This document shows, one piece after another, positions 2,368 to 51,657 of a stretch of 64,000 bases of DNA. Both the position numbers and the translations under genes were made by a program. Source of the DNA: Nitrospirales bacterium. GTDB taxonomy: Bacteria > Nitrospirota > Nitrospiria > Nitrospirales > UBA8639. The stretch is from positions 1 to 64,000 of the forward strand of contig JAJDBP010000036.1 of assembly GCA_029261295.1 (NCBI GenBank), read 5' to 3'. Position 1 is the first letter of the stretch. Every line of letters starts with the position of its first letter. The notes under the pieces are model-generated. The model saw only the letters and a program-made list of their open reading frames with translations. It searched no databases and had not been told where the DNA came from.

Positions 2368-4263
2368 TTATTCACGAATAAATCGAGCGGCATAACTTCG
2401 GATTTCATGACCGTTTAATACATGAAAGTGACGTAGTCGGGCAACCGTCTGCCCAGAAAACCTATGAAGCGGTAAGGGTACGAGTTTCTTGCCATATTTT
2501 CGTGCGATGTTTCGCCAGGCAGCTTTCAGGGGAACGGGGGAGACGATGGCGACATGAGTTTCATGTGAATGAAAACAGGCGCCTGCCAACAACCGTTCCT
2601 CTAAGGTTGTGGTGAACTGAAAACGGGGATTTTCCCAAATATCTGGAATGGGGCGAGGTGGATATAAAAACATCGTTCCCCCATATAGTGCCTGCCCGAT
2701 CCCTGGCCCAATCATATGAGTCGAAAAAGGTGTGGCATAAAAACATAAGGTCGATTCTTCCTGATGCTCAGCAAACCAGGTTGTTCGCCATGTATACACA
2801 TTAGGATCTGAGGGAACTTCAAAGAGAAAAACCAACACTTCAATGGTGCCTCTAACTGGAGGAGTGACTTTGACTTGTAGGTCAAAGACGGAATGCGACG
2901 GTTTCGTCGCCCATTGGCGAAGAGTTTCTCGAAGATCAATCCCATCTTCCAACGAGGTGCTGAATTGCTCGATTCTCGCCAGATCCGCCCCAAGAATTTG
3001 TTTGCTTTGTTGCCGAACATGCGACGCAAAGGACTCAATGCGCAGGTCTTCAGGCGGCCAGGAACATTGTTGAAAGGGGTTCCATTGATGGGCCCAAGAT
3101 TGTGTGTGCTGAATAGGTGCTTGAGGACGTAAGGTGAGGCTTCTCCAGGCTTGCGGATCGCCTTGCAAACGATTGCGGGCTGGCAAAATATCCCCTTCCG
3201 GATCCTGCAATTCACCAATTCCCATTGTGGCCATTGGTGTCATGGTCAACTGTATTGCGTCTGGTTGGTAGTCATAGGTTTTTGCTGTTTCCAACAACAT
3301 CAAAGCAAAAGCATCGCCTGCCATTTGTTGGGCAGCATGAACAAGAGTAAACAAATCAGGCGTCAGACGATGCTCAAGAAGCGTTCGGTTTCGAACATAA
3401 TGAAAATACCGTTGTAATAATTGAGGGGTAATCCAATTCGCTTCCTGCACGACTGAGGGCGAACGAGAGGCCAGCCAGCGGGATCGGGCTTCCAGCACTA
3501 ATTCTTTTATGCCATCAATAGACAGATGTGTGTCAGCCCTCGCCTCCTCTCTGCGTTGTTCATATAGTTGCGTAACAAAGGGTAATTCCCCCAGGAGGAA
3601 ATAAAGCGAACGTTGCTCAACATTCCACCGCGCAGGACGTCCACTTGGGCGGTCTGGTGCTACATAGGGTAATCGATCGTGATAGGCTTGCCGAACCCAG
3701 GGCCAATCCATGAGTGGGCAAAGGCACAAAATGTTTCGGTAGTCCAATTCCAATTCATGTAACCGGAAGGCCATCCAGGCAATACGGGTTTGTCGCTGGC
3801 TCGCTGCTTCTGGCGCGGGAAAAAATGGAATGGAGGCGGCAGAAAACTTGCTCAGTGGGATAGACTTCAACACATAGGGATCAGGACCTACCCAAGAGGT
3901 TGAGTGGAAAATGCCCACTTCACGATCAACATAAGCACGGTCGATGCTTTCCCCCATGGCCACTCGAATTCCCATGATCACCGGTTGGCAAGGATCTACG
4001 GGCACATAGGAACAAGTTGAATCTCCGTCCGCCTGCGGTTCGGGACAAACGACTAGACTGATGATTGGGAGGGCCGCAACTCCCTCCTCCACCAGAGATT
4101 CAACAGATGGAGGCAAAGGCACGGCAAGACAATCGACTTCCTGGGAAACCATGAGGTCTCGCACGGTCTGAGCCATATCTCCACTACCATGGGCGATAGG
4201 CAAAATCTGAATCTTCGGAGACAGAGTAAATATCGTATCGGATGGCGAAGCAGCCTGAGACAT
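2368..4263 (-). CDS. Large conserved-looking protein of unknown function, partner of MoxR ATPase
   Basis: A 631-residue soluble protein with no signal peptide or membrane segment. I do not recognise it with confidence. The N-terminal part (ILPIAHGSGDMAQTVRDL, then a stretch about proteins or values handled as a list) and an R..WMAFRLHELELDY segment near residue 170 distantly recall TraB/ChaN-like or DUF5682-type proteins, which are often encoded next to MoxR ATPases. That likeness is an impression, not an alignment. The C-terminal third is rich in aromatic residues and histidines. It lies 87 bp after the ATPase gene and 36 bp before ligA on the same strand, so it is probably co-transcribed with the ATPase. 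Confidence 0.8.
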   Translation of the reverse strand: MSQAASPSDTIFTLSPKIQILPIAHGSGDMAQTVRDLMVSQEVDCLAVPLPPSVESLVEEGVAALPIISLVVCPEPQADGDSTCSYVPVDPCQPVIMGIRVAMGESIDRAYVDREVGIFHSTSWVGPDPYVLKSIPLSKFSAASIPFFPAPEAASQRQTRIAWMAFRLHELELDYRNILCLCPLMDWPWVRQAYHDRLPYVAPDRPSGRPARWNVEQRSLYFLLGELPFVTQLYEQRREEARADTHLSIDGIKELVLEARSRWLASRSPSVVQEANWITPQLLQRYFHYVRNRTLLEHRLTPDLFTLVHAAQQMAGDAFALMLLETAKTYDYQPDAIQLTMTPMATMGIGELQDPEGDILPARNRLQGDPQAWRSLTLRPQAPIQHTQSWAHQWNPFQQCSWPPEDLRIESFASHVRQQSKQILGADLARIEQFSTSLEDGIDLRETLRQWATKPSHSVFDLQVKVTPPVRGTIEVLVFLFEVPSDPNVYTWRTTWFAEHQEESTLCFYATPFSTHMIGPGIGQALYGGTMFLYPPRPIPDIWENPRFQFTTTLEERLLAGACFHSHETHVAIVSPVPLKAAWRNIARKYGKKLVPLPLHRFSGQTVARLRHFHVLNGHEIRSYAARFIRE

Positions 4264-13414: not shown

Positions 13415-16400
13415 ATGACAGCTCAGCCTTTTCGTATTCTTGAAAAATATTGGAAACCAGGCACGAATAAATTCCTGTCGTTGGGTATACTTTTGCTCTT
13501 CATCTTTTTCGGCGCTTTTTTTTATGTGTATGTCTCTGGAAATTATTCCTATCTCGTCGAGCGGAACTTCCGGCTTTTGGCTACCTGGAGCAAGGAGTTA
13601 ACCGAAACATTTGACAATTATGAGAAGAGCTTTCGGTTTCGTGTTCAAGAACAGGAAAGCGCCCGCCTAACTGATTCATCGTCCGGCAGTCAACCTCGTG
13701 GGCTCCATCCAACGTTAACGGATGAAGGTCTGGTGCTTGATGGATTTGCTCCCATCGTCGACACAAAAACCAAAAGTTCAGCCCAGGACAAATCTCACTA
13801 TAAGTTGATGCTGGAACAGCAAACACGAAAACGACTGAGCCTCTTGCCTTTTGTGAAAAACGTCCAACCTCCCAAGGCCTCTCCAGTAACATCAACTGCA
13901 GGGGTAGAACCCAAAGAAGCCCCACCCACGGTCACATTTTCATATGTGCCGAATCAAATGAATGGCCTCATAAAAGCGGAAGCAAAGGAACATGACGGAA
14001 AAGTGACTGCCACAGCCAGTATCGTACTTGGAGATTTACTGAAACATGTAGCTACGGAAAATCTCTATGAAGACGTGTTATTAGCCGATCCTTCCGGAGC
14101 CATTGTCTATCAACAGAAACCCTCCACCTTAAAATTTCTTCATCTAGGAAATCTGGTTCACCATCAACGCACCAAAAATGGATTGCTGAGTAGCGTCTTA
14201 ACTGAAGGAGGGTTGCAACAGGTCAAACTATTAGATTCCAAAAATCTCGGGCATGTCATGAAAACAGCGATGCCTTCTCACTTTCAAGTCACGGTGGGGG
14301 GAAACAGCTATGAAGTGTTCATGCAAGCGGTCGCGTTTCCTTCTATTACGACAGATAAACAATTTCAAGATATTCCCTGGATCATTTGTGGAATTCTTCC
14401 TAGCTCGACATTTCAGGAGCAATACCTGGCCATTCCATTTACGGTCCTGCTCTTTTGTTTATTTTTGTTCATTAGCGCATTTTTAGCCTTGCCATTTTTC
14501 AGCCTGCTTATGATGAACCCACGCGAGCGCTTGACTCGTTTCAGTGTTGTCAGTCTCTTAATTACCAATATCCTTGGAGCAGGAATTGGCACCCTCTTTC
14601 TTTTAGATTTGGGATTTTATAGACAGTCAGTGGCAGATTTCCAGGATCGCCTTACTACCACAACCGACACAGTGGCCGAAGCCTTTCATACGCAACTCGA
14701 TCGTATGGTATGGCAACTTGATTTTTATGATCGGCAATTTAGCGCTTTGCAAGATCGAGAAAAATTTCCAAAGAAAGCGGACTCGAAGGCATGGCTTGCT
14801 CGAGTGAACCTTCCCGATCCCTGCAAAGATCCTAAAGAAAATCCCCTGCCATTCTGCTATCCAAACTTCTCCGTGGCATTTTGGGTAGATGGGGAAGGAA
14901 TCTTACGTGAAACCTGGACACAGGCTGCCACGCCCTATGTAAGAGGCACTCATGATTTGCGCCAACGGGACTATGTCACGAAAGTCCAATTGAGTCCCAA
15001 AAATCTCCATCGACGTTTGATCGACAATCGCTGGTTCGAATTTTATATACAACCATTGATTTCATTAGAATCGAGCAGCAGAAGCGTTGTCGTCTCCCTG
15101 CCACATCAGGCATCTTCCAGTGATCAGTCTCCGACTACCAGATGGGTAGCAGCTATTCAATCAGAAGATTTCTCTCTCCTTAAAGAGCCGGTCTTATCAC
15201 CCGGCACGGGCTATGCGGTGATTGACGATCAAACTGGGTTAGCCGTATTCCATTCAAACGGTCGACGCATGTTGCGAGAAAACTTCCTCGAAGAAACTGA
15301 TAATAACCCGGAAATTTTGGCATTAATTCATGCCAGAACTGAAGGTGCTGTCGAAGGAGACTATTGGGGAAGTGGTCATCGATTTGCCATTAAACCGTTA
15401 TCCGGACTTCCTTGGACTCTCGTTGTTTTTGAAAGTAAAGAAGCATTCCGCATGACAAACTTTGAAGTCCTTCTCTTCTCCTTATCGTTATTTACACTGT
15501 ATATTCTGGCCCTCCTACTGTGGATCAAAGGTCTTACTTTGATCTATTGTCGAGACGCACTGGGACAACACGTTCGATGGACATGGCCGAAACAGGAGTT
15601 GCGGGGAGCCTACCAATGGCTCACTCTTTTTCAAATTGCTACCTTTGTCCTTGGCTTAGCCGCACTATTCGGAATGGATTGGCTAGAGGAATGGGCTACC
15701 ACATCTCGCATGGCTCTTGTTCTATTGCCCTATGCGACCATCTGGCTTGTCATACGAACCCTGTGGAAAGGCCAAGGAGGAACTCCTACAGAAACCTCAG
15801 AGCCTGCAAGCGATCCCTGGGCTTTACTCCAAACATCTCAGTTAATCGGAACGTTCACTAGATTTGGCTTAATGAGCTTTCTTCTTCTTGGCGTGTTTCC
15901 AGCTATTCTGTTTTTTAAAGTGGCACATGATCAGGAAATGCGATTGTTTGCCCAACATCATCTTTGGGGCCTGTCACAATCTCTTTCCCAACAACCCCAG
16001 CGTTCCTGGTTAGCCAAGGGGGCTGGCGAGAACTCCAGGGACTATCAAATGCTCACTTCTCCGATTGGCTGCCTTATAGTCGGATGCCAAACCAATGGAG
16101 AATCACCACCACAATCCAAATCCTTAGCCTGTATGCCAGGGAATAGCCCAACTACCCTGCCTGATATTCAGTATTCCTTACAAAACGTGTTACCAACCTT
16201 TCCTTTATCGACTTGCTTATCCTTTGACTCCACGGACAGAAATCCAAAGGAAGCCATTCACCAATCTTGGCTGGACCGATTTCATCAATTGATTCGTAAA
16301 AGTTCTTTGCAATACCCCATGATTAAGGAAAGTTGGGGATTTTTGAATGCCCCTTCTTCTGCAACGACTGAGGCTTGGACTCAGAACCGTACAAAAGGAC

Positions 16401-17695
16401 ACCAGGAACTGGTACTCCGCATTAATGATTTCCCACAGAGGCAAGGAAACTCCTCAACCTTTAGCCCTCTTCAGCTTTCTCTTTGGACTCCACTTTTCCC
16501 TTGGAACCTGTCATTCAGGCTTTTGGCCATAGGGTTGCTGGCAGGTATTCTTATGATCGTTGGCTATGCAATTCTTCGATATATGATCGGAAAAATCTAC
16601 GCATTTCCATCGTTCTTCCATCGTAGTCATGAAATTGGTGCTGCGGCTCTCCAACTGCCGTCATCTTTAAAGCATCTTTTGATTGTCGGTCCACCAGGTT
16701 CAGGAAAAAGTCATCTGATCAGCACCTTGGGTTCCAGCTGCTCCGTATTAGATATCCATTCAAGTTATGGAAAAGAAGCATGGGCAGAAGACATGGTCGC
16801 CTCTCTCCCTAACCAGACAACCGCCGTCATTCTGGATCATTTCGAATATCAATGGGATAATCTTCTCCATAGAAAAGAAAAGGGCATCCTTGTCGAACGT
16901 CTGCTTGCTCTAGGCTTAAAGATTTGTATTGTGTCGACAAAAGATCCGTTGGAATGGACGAGATCTCCCCTGGTAGCTTCCCTTGATCAAGACATGACAC
17001 ATGCCTATTGGGTTGATCTCCTGGGATCCTTTGGGTTTAGCCATTTTGCCCCTAGTCGAATGGAAGCTCTACTACAGGAATGGCTTCACCCACAAACCGA
17101 ATCTTTGGGAGGAGCAGGTCCAATACTTCCAGTCAAACATTGCTTATATCAAGAGGCACTCCCAACACTTCATTTAGAATGTCTAGGGAAATGGATTCGC
17201 TCCAATCCAGAATGGGCTACATGGACGCCCAGGCAAATGACCGAACAATTTCTCCAACTTGGATGGCCGTATTATCAGTCCCTATGGCAATCTTGCTCCC
17301 TGACTGAAAAAGTCGCGCTCTATCATATTGCGGTAGACGGCTATGTACATGCGGACAATCCAGAATTAATCTCCTTATCTCAAAAAGGATTCATTCGGCT
17401 CACTCCTGACCTACAACTGATGAATGAAAGTTTTCGGCAATGCATTCTGCAATTGGGGGCGAATGCTTATTTATCAAAATGGGAAAAACAGACTCGCACA
17501 GATACCTGGGGACAATTAAAATGGCCGTTTCTTTTTATTTTTGGCGCCGTTCTCCTCTTTTTCTTTTTCACCCAGCAAGAATTCAAAAATTCATTTATTA
17601 CATTAATTTCCCTCTTGCCAATTCTTCTCCCTGCCCTGCCTGATCTACCGGCCCTCTTAACCGTTTCCAAGAATACTCAAAGCACTTCGAGCTAG
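13415..17695 (+). CDS. Giant membrane sensor with Cache-like region and C-terminal P-loop NTPase
   Basis: A 1426-residue inner-membrane protein I cannot match to a named family. Visible order: TM near 22-45; a large extracytoplasmic part; TMs near 337-400; a second extracytoplasmic region about 400-680 that reads like a double Cache sensor (ending GYAVIDDQTGLAVFHSNGR and the closing LSGLPWTLVVFES); a TM cluster about 685-835; another loop; a TM near 1040; then a cytoplasmic NTPase with Walker A VGPPGSGKSH near 1091 and a Walker B-like AVILDHFEYQW near 1140; and two closing hydrophobic segments. The Walker B aspartate is followed by H, not E. It is monocistronic, 238 bp after trpA. I infer signal-driven NTP hydrolysis, but have no direct evidence for a substrate. 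Confidence 0.85.
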   Translation: MTAQPFRILEKYWKPGTNKFLSLGILLLFIFFGAFFYVYVSGNYSYLVERNFRLLATWSKELTETFDNYEKSFRFRVQEQESARLTDSSSGSQPRGLHPTLTDEGLVLDGFAPIVDTKTKSSAQDKSHYKLMLEQQTRKRLSLLPFVKNVQPPKASPVTSTAGVEPKEAPPTVTFSYVPNQMNGLIKAEAKEHDGKVTATASIVLGDLLKHVATENLYEDVLLADPSGAIVYQQKPSTLKFLHLGNLVHHQRTKNGLLSSVLTEGGLQQVKLLDSKNLGHVMKTAMPSHFQVTVGGNSYEVFMQAVAFPSITTDKQFQDIPWIICGILPSSTFQEQYLAIPFTVLLFCLFLFISAFLALPFFSLLMMNPRERLTRFSVVSLLITNILGAGIGTLFLLDLGFYRQSVADFQDRLTTTTDTVAEAFHTQLDRMVWQLDFYDRQFSALQDREKFPKKADSKAWLARVNLPDPCKDPKENPLPFCYPNFSVAFWVDGEGILRETWTQAATPYVRGTHDLRQRDYVTKVQLSPKNLHRRLIDNRWFEFYIQPLISLESSSRSVVVSLPHQASSSDQSPTTRWVAAIQSEDFSLLKEPVLSPGTGYAVIDDQTGLAVFHSNGRRMLRENFLEETDNNPEILALIHARTEGAVEGDYWGSGHRFAIKPLSGLPWTLVVFESKEAFRMTNFEVLLFSLSLFTLYILALLLWIKGLTLIYCRDALGQHVRWTWPKQELRGAYQWLTLFQIATFVLGLAALFGMDWLEEWATTSRMALVLLPYATIWLVIRTLWKGQGGTPTETSEPASDPWALLQTSQLIGTFTRFGLMSFLLLGVFPAILFFKVAHDQEMRLFAQHHLWGLSQSLSQQPQRSWLAKGAGENSRDYQMLTSPIGCLIVGCQTNGESPPQSKSLACMPGNSPTTLPDIQYSLQNVLPTFPLSTCLSFDSTDRNPKEAIHQSWLDRFHQLIRKSSLQYPMIKESWGFLNAPSSATTEAWTQNRTKGHQELVLRINDFPQRQGNSSTFSPLQLSLWTPLFPWNLSFRLLAIGLLAGILMIVGYAILRYMIGKIYAFPSFFHRSHEIGAAALQLPSSLKHLLIVGPPGSGKSHLISTLGSSCSVLDIHSSYGKEAWAEDMVASLPNQTTAVILDHFEYQWDNLLHRKEKGILVERLLALGLKICIVSTKDPLEWTRSPLVASLDQDMTHAYWVDLLGSFGFSHFAPSRMEALLQEWLHPQTESLGGAGPILPVKHCLYQEALPTLHLECLGKWIRSNPEWATWTPRQMTEQFLQLGWPYYQSLWQSCSLTEKVALYHIAVDGYVHADNPELISLSQKGFIRLTPDLQLMNESFRQCILQLGANAYLSKWEKQTRTDTWGQLKWPFLFIFGAVLLFFFFTQQEFKNSFITLISLLPILLPALPDLPALLTVSKNTQSTSS

Positions 17696-36838: not shown

Positions 36839-39031
36839 ATGCAACCAACACCAGAGCGGCAATTAAATTTAACAACGGCTGTCAAACAGATATATCAAGC
36901 CTGCAAGCTCAATGATGATGAGAAGCCTCCATTTTTCTTTATTGTTGGTGCAGGTCTATCAGTTCCTTCAATCCCCCTTGCTGCCCAGATTGAAGAAGAA
37001 TGTAAACAAATTGCCCTGGATTTTGGCCACAAAGATACGGCTGCATATCTAGGACCTCTCGAAAGGTATTCCTTTTGGTTCGAAAATGCTTTCCAACAAA
37101 GAATCCATCGGCAAAAATATCTGAGAAAAAAAATGGAAAAGAGTCCGATATCCCACGCCACGTTACGACTTGCCCACCTGCTATCAGAGAAAAAAGTTGC
37201 AAATATCGTAGTTACCCCCAACTTTGATGATCTCATAACAAAGGCGCTCCATTTATTTGGAATCCCACATATTATTTGTGATCATTCTCAAACTGTAGAA
37301 CGAATTGATACGGAGAGTTCAGACATTCAGATCATTCATGTACATGGAACCTACTGGTTTTATGATTGCTGCAATTTAAAAGGGGAGATTAACACGCAGG
37401 CTCAACCATCGGAACAAACAACTCGCACGATGAGTGCACTACTGGATAATATCTTGACTCGCCGATCACCTCTCGTAATTGGCTACAGTGGTTGGGACGG
37501 GGATGGAATCATGTCAGCACTGAAGCGCCGTCTCACTTCTCCTCTCCCTTATCGTCTGTATTGGTTTTGCTATCGATTGTCTGATTTAGAACAGTTACCA
37601 GACTGGCTAAAAGCGAATGGGGATGTATTTTTCGTAATTCTGGAACAACCACCGGCCCAACAAAAGATATCGAAACCACGTTGGACCAAAAGAAAAGGTG
37701 AGGGAAATCTAGAATTGACGCTACCATTAGAAGAAAAATCATTTGCCGATAAACCCATCGAAGAAAAAATCCTTCCAGCTCAAAAGGTTCTCGATGAGAT
37801 CAATAAAACATTTCAACTTGGAACTCCAAAACTTCTTGATGACCCGCTGGGATTTCTTGCTAAACATTTTGACCTGTCTTTACCTCAAGACGAAGAAAAC
37901 CCTAAAGAGACAACTCCCTACTTCTTTAGCAGTGTTATTCGTGAGATTGAACAGGCAAGAGAATGTATGAGTTCTAAGAAAAATGAATCGCTTCTTGAGA
38001 CACAACTAGAATTTAAGATAGATGAAATTCGAAATGCGGTTCGTCAATCACAGTACAATCATGCCATCAAAAAAGCCCATGAACTAGAGATTGACCAACT
38101 CCCTGTTAAACAACTTCAGGATCTTTGGGACGTGGTTCTCGGTGCGACAAATGTTCCCTCTGAAAAATTAGAAGAACAGTTAAGTACTTACGAACTCCTC
38201 ATCCAATGTGGAGTCACACTTTCACGCCAAATTCCAGAAAATAAAATTCCTATTCAAATTCACGTTGCCAAGGCTTTGGGCAAGAAAGGTTCCACTCTCA
38301 GCCTTCTTGACCGCCCCGAGGAAGGACTCGCCGTCTATGACGAGGTCGTAACTCGGTTCGGCCAAGCTACCGAGCTGGCGCTCCGAGAGTCAGTCGCTTG
38401 GGCTTTGGGCAATAAGGGTTACATTCTTGGCATCCTCCACCGCCCCGAGGATGGACTCGCCGTCTATGACGAGATCGTAACTCGATTCGGACAAGCTACC
38501 GAGCTGGCACTCCGAGAGCAAGTCGCTAGGGCTTTGCTCAATAAAGGTGTGGCACTCGGCATCCTCGACCGTCACGAGGAAGGACTCACCCTCTATGACG
38601 AGGTCGTAACTCGGTTCGGCGAAGCCACCGAGCTGGCGCTCCGAGAGTCAGTCGCTTGGGCTTTGGGCAATAAGGGTTACATTCTCGGCATCCTCGACCG
38701 TCACGAGGAATCTATCGCGGTCTATGACGAGATCGTAACTCGGTTCGGGCAAGCTACCGAGTCGGCGATCCAAAAGGAAGTCGCCAGGGCCTTGTTGAAT
38801 AAAGGCTTTAGCCTCAAATTTCTTAAAAAACTCAATCCTGCGTTGGCAACTTTCACTCAAATTCTTGAACGATTCGGAGACAGCACAGAACCTGGCATCC
38901 GTCAGCAGGTAGATAAAGCCATTAAAGAACTAGATAAAACCCAAACACTAAAAAAAAGAAAAGCCTCAATTACCAAAAAAACCAAATCTTCAAAAAAGAC
39001 AAAAACAGACAAGACAACTAAAAAGAAATAG
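36839..39031 (+). CDS. SIR2-domain protein with TPR array, candidate phage-defence effector
   Basis: A 730-residue protein. The N-terminal region is a SIR2-like NAD-binding fold: GAGLSVPSIP (37-46), TPNFDDL (126-132), IIHVHG with the catalytic-type histidine (H169) and VIGYSGWDGDGI (213-224). The centre is a helical linker. From about 478 come five TPR-like repeats of 43 residues (consensus RALxNKGxxLGILDRHEEGLAVYDEVVTRFGQATELALREQVA, shown here as a pattern, with shorter variants at the ends), and the tail is lysine-rich. SIR2 proteins with helical-repeat sensors in bacteria are typically NAD+-depleting abortive-infection effectors; that role here is inferred. Codon use is more AT-rich than the upstream HD/HtrA genes. 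It stands alone, followed by a glycosyltransferase. Confidence 0.85.
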   Translation: MQPTPERQLNLTTAVKQIYQACKLNDDEKPPFFFIVGAGLSVPSIPLAAQIEEECKQIALDFGHKDTAAYLGPLERYSFWFENAFQQRIHRQKYLRKKMEKSPISHATLRLAHLLSEKKVANIVVTPNFDDLITKALHLFGIPHIICDHSQTVERIDTESSDIQIIHVHGTYWFYDCCNLKGEINTQAQPSEQTTRTMSALLDNILTRRSPLVIGYSGWDGDGIMSALKRRLTSPLPYRLYWFCYRLSDLEQLPDWLKANGDVFFVILEQPPAQQKISKPRWTKRKGEGNLELTLPLEEKSFADKPIEEKILPAQKVLDEINKTFQLGTPKLLDDPLGFLAKHFDLSLPQDEENPKETTPYFFSSVIREIEQARECMSSKKNESLLETQLEFKIDEIRNAVRQSQYNHAIKKAHELEIDQLPVKQLQDLWDVVLGATNVPSEKLEEQLSTYELLIQCGVTLSRQIPENKIPIQIHVAKALGKKGSTLSLLDRPEEGLAVYDEVVTRFGQATELALRESVAWALGNKGYILGILHRPEDGLAVYDEIVTRFGQATELALREQVARALLNKGVALGILDRHEEGLTLYDEVVTRFGEATELALRESVAWALGNKGYILGILDRHEESIAVYDEIVTRFGQATESAIQKEVARALLNKGFSLKFLKKLNPALATFTQILERFGDSTEPGIRQQVDKAIKELDKTQTLKKRKASITKKTKSSKKTKTDKTTKKK
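38285..38800. repeat. Tandem 129-bp coding repeats in the SIR2-TPR gene
   Basis: Units of 129 bp encode the 43-residue TPR-like repeats. Identical stretches occur at 38372 and 38630, exactly two units apart: both read GAGCTGGCGCTCCGAGAGTC and continue identically for over 40 bases. Alternating units are therefore more alike than adjacent ones, pointing to duplication of a two-unit block. Confidence 0.85.
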
Positions 39032-43041: not shown

Positions 43042-44694
43042 TTAATCAGCGGGCATGACGGTAACGATTTCTTGATATAGACGATGAACGGCTTCGGTGT
43101 GCTGACGATAATCCACGAGTAACCCTTCAGCGGTCTGTTTGCTGGTGTCCCCTTTCGGATACCCCATTCTTATGGCACATTTGGCAATTTCATCGGTTTT
43201 GGATGGCAGGAGATGGGTCTGCAGTTCATGCACCATTTGAATTTTATTTTCAAGATTTCGTAAGAAAATATATGATGTCTTGAGTTGATGGACAGCCCCG
43301 ACTTTTAACTTTCCGACTCTCATTAATTTGACCAGACTTTTTAATGTTTGGCGATCACGAATCGCAGGATATCGATACCCCCACCGCAATTGCAGTCCTT
43401 GGACAATAAATTCAATTTCTCGAATGCCCCCCCTGCCCAACTTCACATTTCGCTCGAGTTCTCCACGGCGCGTTAACTTGATGACCATTTGCCTTCGCAG
43501 TTCATGAATCGCCTCAAACACTTGGGGAGCCATCTCTCTTGTCCCATAGACAAACTTCCCCATTTTCTTGAGCAGCGATTGTCCAATCCGAAGATCTCCA
43601 GCAATGGGTTTGGCTTTCAAAAACGCCAGTCGCTCCCACGTCCGACCCCGTGTTTGATAATACTGGCAGGCATCTTCTACCGAACAGGCTAATGGCCCAA
43701 CCTCACCTTCAGGACGCAACCGCATATCCACTCGGAATAAGGCGCCTTCCGAGGTGGAGACGGACAACACATTGGTGAGCTCTCTCGCTAACCCATGAAA
43801 ATAATCAGCATCAAGGACGGGCTGTCGTTTGGTGTTTCCCCTGGCACTTTCTTTTTCCGCTTGAAAGACATAAATAAGATCGACATCCGAACTATAATTG
43901 AGTTCCCATCCCCCCAGTTTCCCCATCGCCAACACCGAAAAGCCGACACGGGTTTTTGCCTTGTTTACTGATGCAGTCCGAACATTTCCATTTTGGCCTA
44001 GGAGGTGTTGCTCAACCAATTCATACGCTGACTGAATCACCACAGCTGCTAAATCGGAAAGGACGGTATACGTTTCAATCGGCGTAGCAATACCAAGGAG
44101 GTCACGAATCCCTAGGCGAAGCATTTCTCGTCGTTTCAATCGCCTCAAGGCCTCACATTTGGCGTCATATGTTTTTACTCCCGCTAACATGGCCTCACCT
44201 AGGTTTAATAACTTCGATTTGGTTCGTCGCTGAACGAGGACACGATCATCTTCAATCCAATACACCAATAACGGATCGCGAATCAGCGTCTGCGCCATGG
44301 CCTGACTGTTTCCAAACACCGTCCCCAACACCTCGAGAACGTGCGGCATTTGTTGCAAATATTGGAATAATTGGAGGCGATGAATGCCGGAATCTACATA
44401 GCGTTCCCATTCATTTAACGCCTGATCTGGATCCGCCGTGTGTGATAACCCGGAAAGCAGCCCTGGCAGAAAACTCGCTAGGGTTTTCCTTGTATGCGGA
44501 TCTCCGGCCATAGCTTGTAAATTTTGGTCGGCTCGTTTCCAATCTTGAAGCCCAAACGATTGAAGTAACCGAGCCACTTCAGAGGAAGCGAGATTGCTGG
44601 CCAACAGAATAGGGGTAGGATCAGGAAGAGGAGAAGAAAATTCTCGTTTCCTGAGCACTGTTTTTTGGGAGGTAGGTTTAGTAGATGATTTCAT
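43042..44694 (-). CDS. GlnE-type protein, N-terminal-half (deadenylylase-like)
   Basis: A 550-residue protein equal to about one half of the usual 900-1000-residue GlnE. It has the nucleotidyltransferase core GKLGGWELNYSSDVDLIYVF near 250-276 with an intact D-x-D pair, VDMRLRPEGEVGPL, and the helical end with ERNVKLGRGGIREIEFIVQGLQL. The sequence around YYQTRGRTWERLAFLKAKPIAG resembles the N-terminal (adenylyl-removing) half of E. coli GlnE, as I recall it. It is divergent from the other half (44765), with a 70-bp spacer. It likely controls adenylylation of the GlnA encoded nearby, but the two activities are not proven. Confidence 0.85.
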   Translation of the reverse strand: MKSSTKPTSQKTVLRKREFSSPLPDPTPILLASNLASSEVARLLQSFGLQDWKRADQNLQAMAGDPHTRKTLASFLPGLLSGLSHTADPDQALNEWERYVDSGIHRLQLFQYLQQMPHVLEVLGTVFGNSQAMAQTLIRDPLLVYWIEDDRVLVQRRTKSKLLNLGEAMLAGVKTYDAKCEALRRLKRREMLRLGIRDLLGIATPIETYTVLSDLAAVVIQSAYELVEQHLLGQNGNVRTASVNKAKTRVGFSVLAMGKLGGWELNYSSDVDLIYVFQAEKESARGNTKRQPVLDADYFHGLARELTNVLSVSTSEGALFRVDMRLRPEGEVGPLACSVEDACQYYQTRGRTWERLAFLKAKPIAGDLRIGQSLLKKMGKFVYGTREMAPQVFEAIHELRRQMVIKLTRRGELERNVKLGRGGIREIEFIVQGLQLRWGYRYPAIRDRQTLKSLVKLMRVGKLKVGAVHQLKTSYIFLRNLENKIQMVHELQTHLLPSKTDEIAKCAIRMGYPKGDTSKQTAEGLLVDYRQHTEAVHRLYQEIVTVMPAD

Positions 44695-44764
44695 GAAGAC
44701 AGAAAATTATACGAGACCCAGCCAGGCCTTACAATGCAAGAAGTTTTCAGTATACTGCAATATT

Positions 44765-47023
44765 ATGGATTCTTCTGCTTTGCTCGAACAGGTTCAACAA
44801 CGCGCTCCCCATCTGGCTCCCACGTTGGTGCAAGATTTCTTCTCACAGATGGATCCCGACTACTTTGAGCAATCCCCTCTCGAAACCATTCTTGAACATC
44901 TTGAGCTCACCGCCCAACTCACCTTCGAACAGCCTTGTTCGGTCGCGATCAACACCCTTTCATCAAAACAATATCAAATTCATATCGTCGCGTATGATTA
45001 TTTTTCAGAATTTGCTACGTTTTGTGGAGTCTTAGCCTCCTTCGGACTCGACATTCGAGAAGCGGCCATCTTCACTTCCCGAGAAATTGATTCTCCATCT
45101 AAATCCAATACGACCGCATTCAAAAAACAGAACCCGTGGAAACACCTTTCTCCTAAACGTCCCACTAGTAAATTTTCTCGAAAGTTCGTGGTCGATGTGT
45201 TTCGCGTTCAAGCCTTGAAAGGCTTTTCATTCGATGCCTCCGCCCAGCAGGAATTCAAGAACAAACTGACCTCATTACTTCGATTACTCCAGAAAAATCA
45301 CCTACGGCAGGCACGGCGGCTCGTCAATCGTGGTCTCATTGAAAATCTAAGTCACACACACAATAAGACTAGCGAGCTCGTGCATCCGGTTCATATCACG
45401 TTTTCCAATCCCGCCTCTTCGCCAGATACGGTGTTAGATATCCGGTCAACCGATACTCCAGCATTTCTTTATGCCTTTGCTAATGCCTTGGCCATGCGCG
45501 GCATTTATCTCGTCAAAGCCAAGATCGAAGTCAAAGGGCACCAAGTCTTCAATCGTCTCTATGTCCGTGGCCGTCAGGGTGGCAAACTTCAAAGCCAAGC
45601 GGAGCAGCAAGAGCTACGGACAGCCGCGGCCCTCTTGAAAGAGTTTACCTATTATCTCAGTTGGGCCCCCGACCCTGGAAAAGCGCTCGATCACTTTGAT
45701 CAATTCTTGGATCAACTCCTAGAAGAACCTCAAAAAACATCCACATTGAGTACTTTAGGGAAAGCTTCAACATTAGAGCATCTCGCGCAATTGTTCGGCA
45801 GCAGTGATTATATCTGGGAGGATCTCCTACGACGACAGCATGACAATCTGTTGCCTATGATGCGTCAATTCAAAAAGGGCCCGTTGGTGAGGTCCAAGGC
45901 CGTTTTAGAAAAAGCCTTAACAGCACGGTTGCTAGAGGCCAAGTCGATCTCCAAGAAAAAACAAGAACTCAATCGATTCAAGGACGAAGAACTCTTTCGG
46001 ATAGACATGCGGCATCTCCTCGAAACCAGTTCGCTTCCCGACTTCTCCAAGGCCTTAACCAATTTAGCTGATGTTATTTTAGGACAAGCGCTCGAACAAT
46101 CCTATCAAGTTATCCGGCCCAAAGGCTCAAAGGCCAACGAAGGGTCCATGGCTATTTTTGGATTAGGGAAATTGGGAGGAGGAGAGTTGGGGTATGCCTC
46201 AGACATTGAAATACTCTTTGTCTATGCGAACGCGAAACCATCCAGCTCACGACAACCATCCAAAGTTTCCACCGATTTCTACGAACGATGGTCACAGGAA
46301 TTTCTCCAATGGATCGAAGCCAAGCAAGAAGGCATTTTCCATATTGATACTCGCCTTCGGCCAAATGGCGACAAGGGAACCTTGGCGAATTCGTTAGGCG
46401 AGATTCAGCAATATTATAGTGCCGAAGGCCGATCGGCGCCCTTTGAACGACAAGCCTTCATCAAGCTCCGGTTCGTCGCTGGCAATCCTGCCTTAGGTAA
46501 AGCGGTTGACACTCACCAGAAAATCTTTGTGTATGGAGAAGAGCCATGGGATCTTCAAGCGGCACTCCATCTTCGACAGCGCCAAATGACTGAACTCGTG
46601 ACACCAGGCACCACTCATGTGAAGTATGGTCCTGGGGGCTTGCTGGATGTGGAATATCTGGTGCAATACCTTCAGCTCCTGCATGGACATCATGATCCAT
46701 CCATTCGCACGCCCAACACCTTAGAAGCCATTGAACAACTCTGCCATGTCTCTTTTCTTTCTCTTTCAGAAAGAGAAGCCTTGCGTGAAGATTATCTCTT
46801 TTTGCGACAATTAATCGATGGCTTGCGCATTGTCAGAGGAAATGCCAAAGACTTGGTCCTCCCGCCTTCCGGTTCAGATGAAATGGTATTTTTAGCACGA
46901 CGTTTAGGAATGGGGTCTACGGACTGGCAGAAAAGTGCGAAAACTTTCGAACACACCACGCTTGAGCGAATGGCAAAAATTCACGAGCGCTTCCTGAAGC
47001 ATTTTTCAAAAAACACTGCCTGA
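44765..47023 (+). CDS. GlnE-type protein, C-terminal-half (adenylylase-like), with N-terminal ACT-like region
   Basis: A 752-residue protein. The first 330 residues (HIVAYDYFSEFATFCGVLAS..., then DVFRVQAL and LYAFANALAMRGIYLVKAKI near 230-270) look like two ACT-like small-molecule-sensing segments, as in GlnD and related regulators. The NTase core is GKLGGGELGYASDIEILFVY near 461-487, with the second metal-binding aspartate changed to Glu (SDIE). Later come DTRLRPNGDKGTL and PGGLLDVEYLVQYLQL. This half resembles the C-terminal (adenylylating) half of GlnE. ATG 44765 is preferred; an upstream frame begins inside the divergent gene. Convergent with glnA, separated by hairpins. Confidence 0.8.
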   Translation: MDSSALLEQVQQRAPHLAPTLVQDFFSQMDPDYFEQSPLETILEHLELTAQLTFEQPCSVAINTLSSKQYQIHIVAYDYFSEFATFCGVLASFGLDIREAAIFTSREIDSPSKSNTTAFKKQNPWKHLSPKRPTSKFSRKFVVDVFRVQALKGFSFDASAQQEFKNKLTSLLRLLQKNHLRQARRLVNRGLIENLSHTHNKTSELVHPVHITFSNPASSPDTVLDIRSTDTPAFLYAFANALAMRGIYLVKAKIEVKGHQVFNRLYVRGRQGGKLQSQAEQQELRTAAALLKEFTYYLSWAPDPGKALDHFDQFLDQLLEEPQKTSTLSTLGKASTLEHLAQLFGSSDYIWEDLLRRQHDNLLPMMRQFKKGPLVRSKAVLEKALTARLLEAKSISKKKQELNRFKDEELFRIDMRHLLETSSLPDFSKALTNLADVILGQALEQSYQVIRPKGSKANEGSMAIFGLGKLGGGELGYASDIEILFVYANAKPSSSRQPSKVSTDFYERWSQEFLQWIEAKQEGIFHIDTRLRPNGDKGTLANSLGEIQQYYSAEGRSAPFERQAFIKLRFVAGNPALGKAVDTHQKIFVYGEEPWDLQAALHLRQRQMTELVTPGTTHVKYGPGGLLDVEYLVQYLQLLHGHHDPSIRTPNTLEAIEQLCHVSFLSLSEREALREDYLFLRQLIDGLRIVRGNAKDLVLPPSGSDEMVFLARRLGMGSTDWQKSAKTFEHTTLERMAKIHERFLKHFSKNTA

Positions 47024-47051: not shown

Positions 47052-47078
47052 AAGAGTTTCAATTTCTTAGAAACTCTT
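47052..47078. terminator. Hairpin at the convergent end of glnA
   Basis: AAGAGTTTC (47052-47060) and GAAACTCTT (47070-47078) form a perfect 9-bp stem. It overlaps the glnA stop by two bases and could stop transcription from either side. Confidence 0.5.
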
Positions 47079-48486
47079 ACACGTCGTAATACATGAAGAA
47101 TTCATGGGGATGTGGTCGGAGACGCATCGGATCCACTTCGTTATCCCGTTTATAGGAAATCCAAGCCTCAACTAAGTCTTCAGTAAACACTCCCCCTTTA
47201 AGGAGGAATTCATAGTCATTGGCCAAGTTGTCTAAGGCTTCATCCAAACTCGACGGCAAAGTTTGGATATTCCCTAATTCTTCTGGTTCCAGATCATACA
47301 GATTTTTGTCCATGGCTTCGCCTGGATCGATTTTATTTTGGATACCATCCAACCCGGCCATCAACATGGCGCTGAAAGCCAAATACATATTGCAGGATGG
47401 ATCAGGGAATCGCACTTCAATTCGTTTGGCTTTCGGACTGGGTGAATACATCGGAATCCGAATAGCCGCCGATCGGTTACGGCTAGAATACGCGAGCATC
47501 ACCGGGGCTTCGAATCCTGGCACCAGCCGCTTATACGAATTGGTTGTGGGATTCGTTAAGGCTGCCAAAGCTGGTCCATGCTTGATAATCCCACCAATGT
47601 AATAGAGACATTGTTGCGACACACCAGCATAATCTTTGCCAGCAAATGATGGCTTTCCACCTTTCCAAATACTTTGATGCGTGTGCATCCCTGTGCCATT
47701 GTCGCCAAAGACGGGCTTCGGCATAAATGTGGCCGTTTTTCCATGACGACGTGCGACATTGCGAACAATGTATTTATACATCATCATTTGATCAGCCATT
47801 TTGACCAACGTATCAAAACGCAGATCAATTTCTGCCTGACCAGCGGTGGCCACTTCATGATGATGTTTTTCAACACGAATGCCCGCTTTTTCCATTTCAC
47901 GGCACATTTCGGAGCGAATATCTTGTTGGGAATCAACTGGAGCCACTGGAAAGTAGCCTTCCTTGTGGCGAGGACGAGAACCTAAGTTTTCGCCATCTTT
48001 TCCGGAATTCCAAATACCTTCTTCCGAATCCACAAAGTAATACCCAGAGTGACTATTTTGATCAAAGCTCACGTGATCAAAAATGAAGAATTCTGCCTCT
48101 GGCCCCCAATAGGACGTATCACCAATTTTAGTACTCTTCAGATATTGTTCGGCTCGCATGGCCACACCGCGAGGGTCACGTTCATAGATGGTGCGAGTAA
48201 TGGGATCTTCCACATTACCGATCATGCTCAATGTCGGAATCTCCGTGAATGGATCCATCCGAGCCGAATTGGGATCTGGCACTAATAACATGTCACTGTT
48301 TTGAATGGCCTTCCACCCACGGATGGACGATCCATCAAACCCTGAACCTTCTTTAAATAAATCCAAAGATAATTCGGAAGTAGGAATGGAAAAATGCTGC
48401 CAGGTTCCAACCAAATCAATAAATTTGATATCGACCATTTCGACCTTATTCTTCTTGGCAAAATCCAACACTTCTTTAGGGGTCAT
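47077..48486 (-). CDS. glnA: Glutamine synthetase, type I
   Basis: Makes glutamine from glutamate, ammonia and ATP. The 469-residue protein has the family start, the FDGSSIRGW loop, metal and glutamate motifs ([21 protein letters not shown]), the [17 protein letters not shown] signature and the C-terminal adenylylation motif [10 protein letters not shown] with the target tyrosine. A tyrosine here predicts control by the GlnE-type proteins next to it. ATG 48486 follows AAGGAGGT, an excellent ribosome-binding site. Last of the minus-strand run porin-amtB-glnK-amtB-glnA. Confidence 0.98.
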
Positions 48487-48569: not shown

Positions 48570-49877
48570 TTATGAATAGGCTCTTTCACTATGTTGGCTG
48601 AGATCCAACCCCATTTCTTCATCTTGAGGAGAGACTCGAAGCCCAATGGTGAGATCAATGATTTTCAAAATAATATACGTTCCAATCATCGCAAACGCTA
48701 AGGTTACCAAAGCCAGAAAGACTTGTATACCAAACAACTCAGCATTTCCAAAAAACAAGCCTGTCGCCCCAATTGACGCAAAAAGTCCTGTGGCTAAGAT
48801 TCCCATAAAACCTCCGACGCCATGTATTCCGACCACGTCTAAGGAGTCATCATATCCCAGCTTCATCTTCCACACCACCGCGACATAGCACATGGTTCCG
48901 GCAATTAACCCAATGACCATAGCCGACATGGGCCCAACAAATCCTGCAGCCGGAGTAATCGTGGCTAATCCGGCAATAATACCACTGGCAATACCCAGAA
49001 CGGTTGGCTTCCCTCTATGAACCCATTCCGCACACATCCAACTGAGTCCACCTGCCGCCGCCGCAATATGAGTGGCAATAAACGCGACCCCAGCTCCACC
49101 ATTGGCTCCTAAGGCGCTCCCTCCATTAAATCCAAACCACCCAAACCACAACAAACCCGTCCCTAACACCGTCATCGGTAAGTTATGAGGGGGCATGGCC
49201 TCTTTGGCAAAACCTTTACGAGGGCCTAACATCATCGCGCAAACCAGGGCGCCAAAACCCGAACTAATATGCACCACGGCGCCTCCGGCAAAATCTAGGG
49301 CACCCATTTGAGATAACCATCCACCTCCCCACACCCAATGCGCCAAAGGAGAATAAATACATAAGGACCACAAAACGGAAAATGCAAGTAATGCTTTAAA
49401 ATTCATACGTTCGGCTACGGCACCAGTAATCAGGGCCACCGTAATGGCGGCAAACATGAGCTGAAACACCATAAAGACTTGATGAGGAATTGTTGAAGCA
49501 TAGGTCGGACTCGGGTCAGCCCCAACGCCCTGTAACCCTATCCATTCTAGACTGCCAATCATGCCACCCACGTCAGGGCCAAATGCTAAACTATATCCAC
49601 AAATCACCCAGACTAAGGTAATCAAACACAGAATGACGGCCGTATGCATGATGGTGCCTAACACATTTTTACTACGAACAAGCCCGCCATAAAATAAGGC
49701 TAATCCTGGAAGCATCATGCACAAGACTAAAGCGGACGACATTAAAATCCATGCCGTGTCGCCTGTATCTACCTGAAGCGCTCCTCCGTCCTCTGCTAAA
49801 ACAAGAGACGACTCTCCCATTCCAACAACCATTGCCAATACTAGGCCTAGCTTTATGAGCGCGTTGGATATTTTCAT
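48570..49877 (-). CDS. amtB: Ammonium transporter, Amt/Rh family, copy 1
   Basis: A 435-residue membrane protein with 11 predicted helices and a signal-type N-terminus. The twin-histidine pore is present: the first histidine in FAGGAVVHISSG and the second in DVVGIHGVGGF. The start is ATG 49877, preceded closely by AAGGAGG. A GlnK gene follows on the other side, and PII-family proteins gate Amt channels. The two Amt proteins differ over much of their length, so they are old or diverged duplicates. Confidence 0.96.
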   Translation of the reverse strand: MKISNALIKLGLVLAMVVGMGESSLVLAEDGGALQVDTGDTAWILMSSALVLCMMLPGLALFYGGLVRSKNVLGTIMHTAVILCLITLVWVICGYSLAFGPDVGGMIGSLEWIGLQGVGADPSPTYASTIPHQVFMVFQLMFAAITVALITGAVAERMNFKALLAFSVLWSLCIYSPLAHWVWGGGWLSQMGALDFAGGAVVHISSGFGALVCAMMLGPRKGFAKEAMPPHNLPMTVLGTGLLWFGWFGFNGGSALGANGGAGVAFIATHIAAAAGGLSWMCAEWVHRGKPTVLGIASGIIAGLATITPAAGFVGPMSAMVIGLIAGTMCYVAVVWKMKLGYDDSLDVVGIHGVGGFMGILATGLFASIGATGLFFGNAELFGIQVFLALVTLAFAMIGTYIILKIIDLTIGLRVSPQDEEMGLDLSQHSERAYS

Positions 49878-49921
49878 TGTGCCTCCTTCAACCAAACCCG
49901 TGTTAGGAAAATGAATAATGA

Positions 49922-50281
<360 letters not shown>

Positions 50282-50355: not shown

Positions 50356-51657
50356 CTAGCCATACGCGCGTTCGCTATGTTGCGTGAGATCCAGCCCAAG
50401 AACTTCCTCTTCCTGACTCACACGCAAGCCCACCACACCATCAACAATTTTCAAAATTATAAACGTCCCCAAACCCGCAAAAATCCACGTGGCACCAACA
50501 CCAACCGCTTGAATGCCCACTTGCTCCGGATTCCCAAAAAAGAGTCCAGTGCCTCCACCCATACTGGCAAATAACCCGGTGGCCAACGCACCCCAGGTAC
50601 CACCAATGCCATGAATACCCAGCACATCTAAAGCATCGTCATAGCCCATTTTATTTTTCAAAAAGACACCCAAATAACAGATGGCTCCGCCACCGAGTCC
50701 AATGAGAATGGCTGAAACAGGACCAACAAACCCGGCCGCAGGAGTAATCGCCACCAAGCCGGAGACCGCGCCACTCGCGGCGCCAAGCATGGTCGGCGTT
50801 CCACGATAACCCCACTCCACTCCTAGCCAGGCCAAGGCTCCAGCCGCCGCCGCGACCTGTGTCGCCACAAACGCACTTGAAGCAATGCCATCGGCAGCCA
50901 AGGCACTTCCCGCATTAAAACCAAACCATCCGACCCACAATAATCCTGCCCCAATAACCGTAAATGGTAAGTTATGGGGACTCATATTATCTGTCCCATA
51001 CCCACGCCGTTTTCCTAACACAAGGGCACAGGTTAAGGCGGCCACCCCGGAACTGATATGCACCACAGTGCCACCCGCAAAATCTAAATCACCGAGTCCC
51101 GCTAACCAACCTCCACCCCAAACCCAATGGGCCAACGGAGCATAAATACACGTGACCCACAAAATAGCAAAAAGCACAAACGCTGAAAATTTCATGCGTT
51201 CAGCTATCGCACCACTAATCAACGCTACCGTAATGCCGGCAAACATCAGCTGAAACACCATAAATGCGAGATGGGGAATCGTCGACCCTTCTGTTGGTTC
51301 AGGACCAACACCTGCTAAGCCAACCAAATCTAAATTGCCAACCATGCCTCCCACATCAGGGCCAAACGCTAAGCTATAGCCCCAAAACACCCAGACCACA
51401 CTGACCAGGCAGATCGAGATAAAACTATGCATCATCGTACTAAGCACATTTTTACTTCGAACCATTCCGCCATAAAACAACGCCAGGCCAGGAACAATCA
51501 TCGCAAGAACTAATGCTGATGAAGTTAAAACCCAACTGGTATCACCTGCACTAAGTGTTGAAACTTCTTCCGCAAATGCATAACTGCTTGAAATGGCGCA
51601 TAAAATCACAATCCCGAAAAAACAAACACCTATTTTGTCTAATCTATAAATGGACAT
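50356..51657 (-). CDS. amtB: Ammonium transporter, Amt/Rh family, copy 2
   Basis: A 433-residue Amt protein with signal-type N-terminus (FFGIVILCAISSSYAFA). The pore histidines are in FAGGTVVHISSG and DVLGIHGIGGT. It ends in SQEEEVLGLDLTQHSERAYG, which matches the end of copy 1 (DLSQHSERAYS). The conserved HSERAY tail in both suggests a PII-contact or sorting role. Located upstream of glnK in the run. Confidence 0.96.
   Translation of the reverse strand: MSIYRLDKIGVCFFGIVILCAISSSYAFAEEVSTLSAGDTSWVLTSSALVLAMIVPGLALFYGGMVRSKNVLSTMMHSFISICLVSVVWVFWGYSLAFGPDVGGMVGNLDLVGLAGVGPEPTEGSTIPHLAFMVFQLMFAGITVALISGAIAERMKFSAFVLFAILWVTCIYAPLAHWVWGGGWLAGLGDLDFAGGTVVHISSGVAALTCALVLGKRRGYGTDNMSPHNLPFTVIGAGLLWVGWFGFNAGSALAADGIASSAFVATQVAAAAGALAWLGVEWGYRGTPTMLGAASGAVSGLVAITPAAGFVGPVSAILIGLGGGAICYLGVFLKNKMGYDDALDVLGIHGIGGTWGALATGLFASMGGGTGLFFGNPEQVGIQAVGVGATWIFAGLGTFIILKIVDGVVGLRVSQEEEVLGLDLTQHSERAYG

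Follow-up and report, generated by a model that had tools for sequence, protein, structure and literature searches.

The textbook control of bacterial glutamine synthetase (GS) runs from GlnD through PII to GlnE. Here, we describe a rearranged GlnE locus in a 64,000-nucleotide stretch of DNA (hereafter, the window; positions 1 to 64,000 of contig JAJDBP010000036.1, assembly GCA_029261295.1) from a Nitrospirales bacterium. Two GlnE-type genes lie back to back on opposite strands, exactly 70 base pairs (bp) apart, and encode proteins of 550 and 752 amino acids (aa). Both proteins match Pfam GlnE (2.7e-60 for the 550-aa protein and 1.6e-42 for the 752-aa protein) and GlnD_UR_UTase, and in each the GlnE nucleotidyltransferase domain is followed by a helical domain, the part matched by GlnD_UR_UTase. 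A PF03710 search of the genome, which is 100% complete by its listed figure, returned no other GlnE, fused or separate; the sole further match was a weak one to GlnD. An earlier note, made from the sequence alone, had described two divergent GlnE-type genes around a 70-bp spacer in place of one fused GlnE, one of them encoding ACT-like domains, and this observation is confirmed. The spacer contains two overlapping sigma-70-like consensus matches that face apart (two observed against 0.3 expected in shuffles). The ATG at 44765 is taken as the start of the 752-aa protein because the alignment with its relatives begins there; a TTG start at 44594, giving 809 aa, was dropped, since conservation begins at the ATG and stop codons occur upstream of it in several relatives.

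The earlier note had also read the 550-aa protein as the deadenylylating (AR) half of GlnE with an intact D-x-D and the 752-aa protein as the adenylylating (AT) half with SDIE, and both assignments stand. Plain phmmer and NCBIfam scores were dropped as a test of AR against AT, as the 752-aa protein scores slightly better on the Escherichia coli AR domain (PDB 1v4a) than on the AT domain (3k7d). Its full model aligns with both structures (template modelling score by target, 0.82 for 1v4a and 0.70 for 3k7d). A 2015 survey of GS adenylyltransferases (GS-ATases) likewise reports that sequence search does not separate AR from AT halves (PMC4454073). We therefore used class-specific residues and a rooted tree. 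In E. coli numbering, AR halves carry Asn169, which is required for AR activity, and AT halves carry Gly697 (PMC4454073). Asn266 of the 550-aa protein stands at the position of N169, and Gly476 of the 752-aa protein, invariant in 20/20 relatives, stands at that of G697. An unrooted tree of halves cannot decide between AR and AT. When single halves are placed in a tree with GlnD as the root, ACT-linked AT halves fall with the classical C-terminal (AT) halves at a support of 94 (not starred), and the 550-aa proteins of Nitrospiria fall with the classical N-terminal (AR) halves at a support of 93. Taken together, the class residues and the rooted tree sustain the assignment. The best solved relative of the 550-aa protein is 1v4a (2.5e-50). 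The 550-aa protein keeps an SSDVD motif, and the 752-aa protein has SDIE at residues 479 to 482. The Nitrospiria AR proteins group with classical N-terminal halves apart from most other AR halves of ACT-bearing systems, with moderate support and with long branches in the tree. Separate origins for the Nitrospiria AR and AT proteins were considered on these grounds and not adopted.

The 752-aa protein (hereafter, ACT-AT) carries an extra N-terminal region. Pfam ACT models gave no match in this region at E 1; GlnD models, profile comparison, and structure instead provide the basis for the ACT assignment. Residues 21 to 287 align with the final 230 positions of GlnD profiles (TIGR01693, 1.1e-21; positions 619 to 844 of 850), and profile-profile comparison with GlnD proteins gave 99.7% probability over 234 columns, compared to 0.7% for a column-shuffled control. 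The homology spans the helical segment before the first ACT domain ("YF..PP..IA.H"), ACT1, and ACT2. An AlphaFold model of residues 1 to 300 (mean pLDDT, 83; pTM, 0.81) contains two beta-alpha-beta-beta-alpha units and matches the tandem ACT structures of aspartate kinase (VIA Z, 11.8), threonine deaminase (10.2), and CASTOR1 (8.3), as well as the isoleucine-bound regulatory domain of threonine deaminase (Z, 9.4). The ACT-like stretches proposed earlier are thus real, and the fold, which had been set beforehand as a test, is present in both the model and the profile comparison. The other test set beforehand, a search for a normal full-length GlnE elsewhere in the genome, found none, so that neither refuting condition holds. 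Because Pfam misses this part of the protein, current annotation hides it.

ACT-AT shares with the C-terminal regulatory part of GlnD a helical linker followed by tandem ACT domains. GlnD, however, has a uridylyl-removing HD domain between its nucleotidyltransferase and ACT domains, whereas no HD match was found in ACT-AT with Pfam, and the ACT module is joined to a GlnE AT half, in the order ACT and then AT. ACT-AT also differs from GlnD in an extra helical hairpin between ACT1 and ACT2 and, in Nitrospiria, in the mostly replaced glycine of the beta1-alpha1 turn. A structural likeness extends to the N-terminal ACT region of the 180-kDa glutamate dehydrogenase (9hv0), an unrelated enzyme, whose helices and one ACT unit superpose on model residues 2 to 186 (Z, 10.4). 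The likeness of the linker and ACT1 (within 44765-45664) to this dehydrogenase hints that nitrogen enzymes may share a unit composed of a helical linker and an ACT domain.

The AT half also departs from the classical enzyme at its catalytic site. SD-x-E occurs in every ACT-linked AT half examined (24/24 rows outside Nitrospirota and all Nitrospiria rows), and E482 of ACT-AT is invariant in 20/20 relatives; SD-x-D is found in 15/15 classical C-terminal halves and in every AR half examined. Of 20 further Anaerolineae proteins, 17 carry SD-x-E; the motif pattern missed the remaining three. Asp-x-Glu is an accepted catalytic pair in the nucleotidyltransferase superfamily, for example in kanamycin nucleotidyltransferase, and we therefore read the site in ACT-linked AT halves as a variant that is putatively active, not as a dead one. 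Classical GlnE (AR-R-AT in one chain in E. coli; 1v4a, 3k7d) is built from the same two halves, each a PF03710 domain with a PF08335-like domain, and the window pair resembles it in the class residues N (AR) and G (AT), in D-x-D in the AR half, and in the presence of a GlnA with Tyr397. It differs in comprising two divergently transcribed proteins, in the GlnD-type ACT module before AT, and in D-x-E in AT. Since the AT half lacks D-x-D and the two halves do not share a single chain, the pair is, as judged from its sequence, a GlnE variant rather than a classical member.

This arrangement is conserved. The divergent AR/ACT-AT pair is present in every Nitrospirales locus examined in full, full-length ACT-AT occurs in 82/89 Nitrospiria genomes of the phylum sample (hand count), and the gene order clpB - AR / ACT-AT - glnA - amt - PII - amt is frequent in the family of the window's genome. 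Elsewhere in Nitrospirota, the matches listed cover the catalytic part only, within fused frames that mostly measure 1,040 to 1,080 aa, so that outside class Nitrospiria the phylum appears to encode ordinary fused GlnE. Two Nitrospira records (L100:1905-3289 and L104:9836-12242) contain short extra AR C-terminal helical fragments near the pair, like decayed duplicates.

A scan of 84,980 species genomes with domain dissection (taxon names follow the records, mostly metagenome-assembled genomes [MAGs]) places the ACT-AT module in about twelve phylum-level groups: it was found in Planctomycetota, Anaerolineae and Caldilineae (Chloroflexota), Verrucomicrobia, Spirochaetes, Fibrobacteria, Deltaproteobacteria (Myxococcota), Omnitrophota, Entotheonella, Acidobacteria, and Glassbacteria records and in an unplaced Proteobacteria MAG. 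The ACT-linked AT halves group in a single, fully supported clade (100*). Planctomycetes, Anaerolineae, and Verrucomicrobia have a single AR-ACT-AT chain of about 1,230 aa, and a permuted ACT-AT-AR chain of about 1,190 to 1,310 aa occurs in spirochaetes, fibrobacteria, Myxococcota, and Omnitrophota. Separate ACT-AT and AR genes are adjacent on one strand in Entotheonella and the Proteobacteria MAG, apart in the genome in Acidobacteria, where AR lies beside glnA, and divergent in Nitrospiria. As ACT-AT shares one chain with AR in most other phyla, the split is not the key feature of the locus and is a smaller surprise than the ACT-AT module itself. In one Glassbacteria record (L085), ACT-AT lies directly behind glnA and no AR half was found anywhere in that genome; either the MAG is incomplete or adenylylation occurs there without an AR-type removal enzyme. 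In an Omnitrophota genome (that of L108), a GlnD-like match (G302:C205) lies within an uninterrupted reading frame 5,870 codons long, an oddity that perhaps reflects another genetic code or an assembly effect.

Gene neighborhood and gene content bear on what such an enzyme would modify and on what would control it. In the window, ACT-AT is followed by glnA, whose product, a type I GS, keeps the adenylylation tyrosine and is the likely substrate of the pair. In genomes with ACT-GlnE outside Nitrospirota, this tyrosine is kept in all readable best GS sequences (Anaerolineae, 27/27), and glnA lies within about 1 kilobase (kb) of glnE in 13/30 Anaerolineae genomes (counted by hand) and in Glassbacteria, Myxococcota, and Fibrobacterota records. 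GlnD was found at the cut-off in 0/31 Anaerolineae genomes with ACT-GlnE, and clear PII (E below 1e-20) in 5/31, with weak PII-like matches in some others. Nitrospirota genomes with classical fused GlnE, in contrast, carry PII in 35/35 cases and GlnD in 29/35 (Fisher p about 1e-13 for each gene), although the genomes within each group are related, and the contrast is therefore one between two lineages and not among 66 independent cases. Glassbacteria, Verrucomicrobia, and spirochaete genomes have PII, with GlnD not over the cut-off. By gene content, the survey shows that ACT-GlnE can exist where PII control is impossible, unlike classical GlnE in the same comparison.

Table 1. Features of the split GlnE locus and its neighbors (window coordinates).
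Feature	Position	Strand	Details
AR half of GlnE (deadenylylating type)	43042..44694	-	ATG, 550 aa; PF03710 2.7e-60, PF08335 3.7e-25
Nucleotidyltransferase domain of AR half	43567..44331	-	PF03710 positions 3-251
AR signature N266-YSS-D270-V-D272	43879..43899	-	N, E. coli N169 class residue; D-x-D
Divergent spacer	44695..44764	.	70 bp; two overlapping sigma-70-like promoter matches
ACT-AT, GlnD-type ACT module and adenylylating GlnE half	44765..47023	+	ATG, 752 aa
Helical linker, aa 19-50	44819..44914	+	"MDPDYF..PLETI.EH"; homologous to GlnD segment before ACT1; helices in model
ACT1, about aa 66-176	44960..45292	+	Disordered insertion aa 109-137; model, structure matches, profile-profile
ACT2, about aa 209-298	45389..45658	+	DTPAFLY at beta1-alpha1 turn; model, structure matches, profile-profile
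Nucleotidyltransferase domain of AT half	45776..46507	+	PF03710 positions 2-249
SDIE, aa 479-482	46199..46210	+	D-x-E signature of ACT-linked AT halves
C-terminal helical domain of AT half	46613..46993	+	PF08335-like
glnA, type I glutamine synthetase, likely substrate	47077..48486	-	TIGR00653 4.9e-206
Tyr397 codon of GlnA	47296..47298	-	Adenylylation site (NLYDL)
Ammonium transporter gene	48570..49895	-	PF00909 1.8e-129
PII (glnK/glnB) gene	49922..50260	-	PF00543 3.6e-33; T-loop Tyr51 kept
Second ammonium transporter gene	50356..51657	-	PF00909 1.3e-129

Elsewhere in the window, a 730-aa protein (36839-39031, plus strand) comprises a SIR2-like domain followed by TPR repeats. With PADLOC it matches SIR2 proteins from Argonaute systems (2.8e-23), and it is possibly the product of a lone defense gene. 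Two long open reading frames, of 1,426 aa (13415-17695, plus strand) and 631 aa (2368-4263, minus strand), have no Pfam match at 0.001.

We think it fairly likely that the locus encodes a rearranged GS adenylyltransferase, in which a separate AR protein is paired with an AT half gated by a ligand of the GlnD-type ACT module, probably glutamine. The most probable mechanism is that glutamine, or another nitrogen-signaling amino acid, binds the tandem ACT domains of ACT-AT and that binding releases or orders the adjacent nucleotidyltransferase domain. The AT domain would then adenylylate Tyr397 of the neighboring GlnA, lowering GlnA activity under nitrogen excess. The AR protein would reverse this modification and, as a separate and divergently transcribed gene product, could be set independently, by expression or perhaps by PII. 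In Nitrospiria, where PII and GlnD are retained, the ACT module may add a fast local input. A GlnD-type sensor module would in this way have moved onto the very enzyme that GlnD usually regulates indirectly. For the family as a whole, we lean slightly toward a second class of GlnE, represented in about a dozen phylum-level groups, whose AT half is switched directly by an attached, GlnD-derived ACT module. Glutamine would thereby control GS in a single protein step, with no need of PII or GlnD, and in Nitrospiria this unit would have become detached from AR.

Several observations weigh against this proposal of an ACT-gated adenylyltransferase. The window's genome carries both PII and GlnD, and its GlnE may therefore still be under PII control. 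The glycine of the beta1-alpha1 turn is a ligand contact in many ACT domains; in the window it is replaced by A233 in ACT2 (A in 17/20 and G in 3/20 Nitrospiria rows), and ACT1 has DYFS with no glycine turn, so the pocket may differ from that of GlnD. The Asp-to-Glu change could lower AT activity, and the contrast in PII and GlnD content is between two lineages that differ in much else. An alternative hypothesis built on the same observations is that this is an ordinary PII-controlled GlnE, split by chance, whose ACT module is a nonsensing scaffold for oligomerization or for binding AR or GlnA. The presence of PII and GlnD in the genome, the PII gene 3 kb away with Tyr51 kept, and the replaced ACT glycines fit this view, yet about a dozen groups with three different gene architectures retain the ACT-AT unit, which also occurs without GlnD and mostly without clear PII, where PII control would be impossible; we regard this alternative as rather unlikely. 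The earlier interpretation is partly supported: its anatomy is correct and its functional reading plausible. The occurrence of ACT-GlnE in genomes without GlnD and mostly without clear PII lends comparative support to direct small-molecule sensing, which in the window's genome, with both PII and GlnD present, may act alongside PII rather than in its place.

The other alternatives accept a working ACT module or question the enzyme itself. The ACT domains might respond to a different amino acid from glutamine, or to more than one at once, as in feedback inhibition of GS (e.g., by Ala, Ser, His, or Trp). The turn residues altered relative to GlnD would suit a different ligand, as would the tandem ACT relatives in the PDB that are regulated by, e.g., isoleucine or arginine. 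We hold this to be a lesser but serious possibility, as the likely substrate is glutamine synthetase and the closest sequence relative found is the ACT pair of GlnD, regarded as its glutamine sensor (PMC3173338). It is also conceivable, though we consider it quite improbable, that the half with D-x-E has ceased to adenylylate GlnA and is instead a pseudoenzyme or a modifier of another protein such as PII. Such a change of role could account for the Glu that all examined ACT-linked AT halves have at the position of the second catalytic Asp. However, D-x-E is functional elsewhere in this fold, and the site is otherwise conserved. The neighboring gene is often glnA, with the tyrosine of its product retained, and many of these genomes have no clear PII to modify.

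In the open-access literature (subscription journals lay outside the search), we found no description of a GlnE with ACT domains, of a split GlnE, or of GlnE in Nitrospira, and the text of the 2015 GS-ATase survey does not mention ACT (PMC4454073). If our proposal of an ACT-gated AT half is correct, a GlnD-type sensor built into GlnE would provide one-step control of glutamine synthetase and would explain how lineages that lack GlnD or PII still control GlnA through adenylylation. Whether GlnE senses glutamine directly would become testable on soluble proteins. The groups concerned, among them relatives of Nitrospira, planctomycetes, and Anaerolineae, matter for nitrogen cycling in wastewater and soil.

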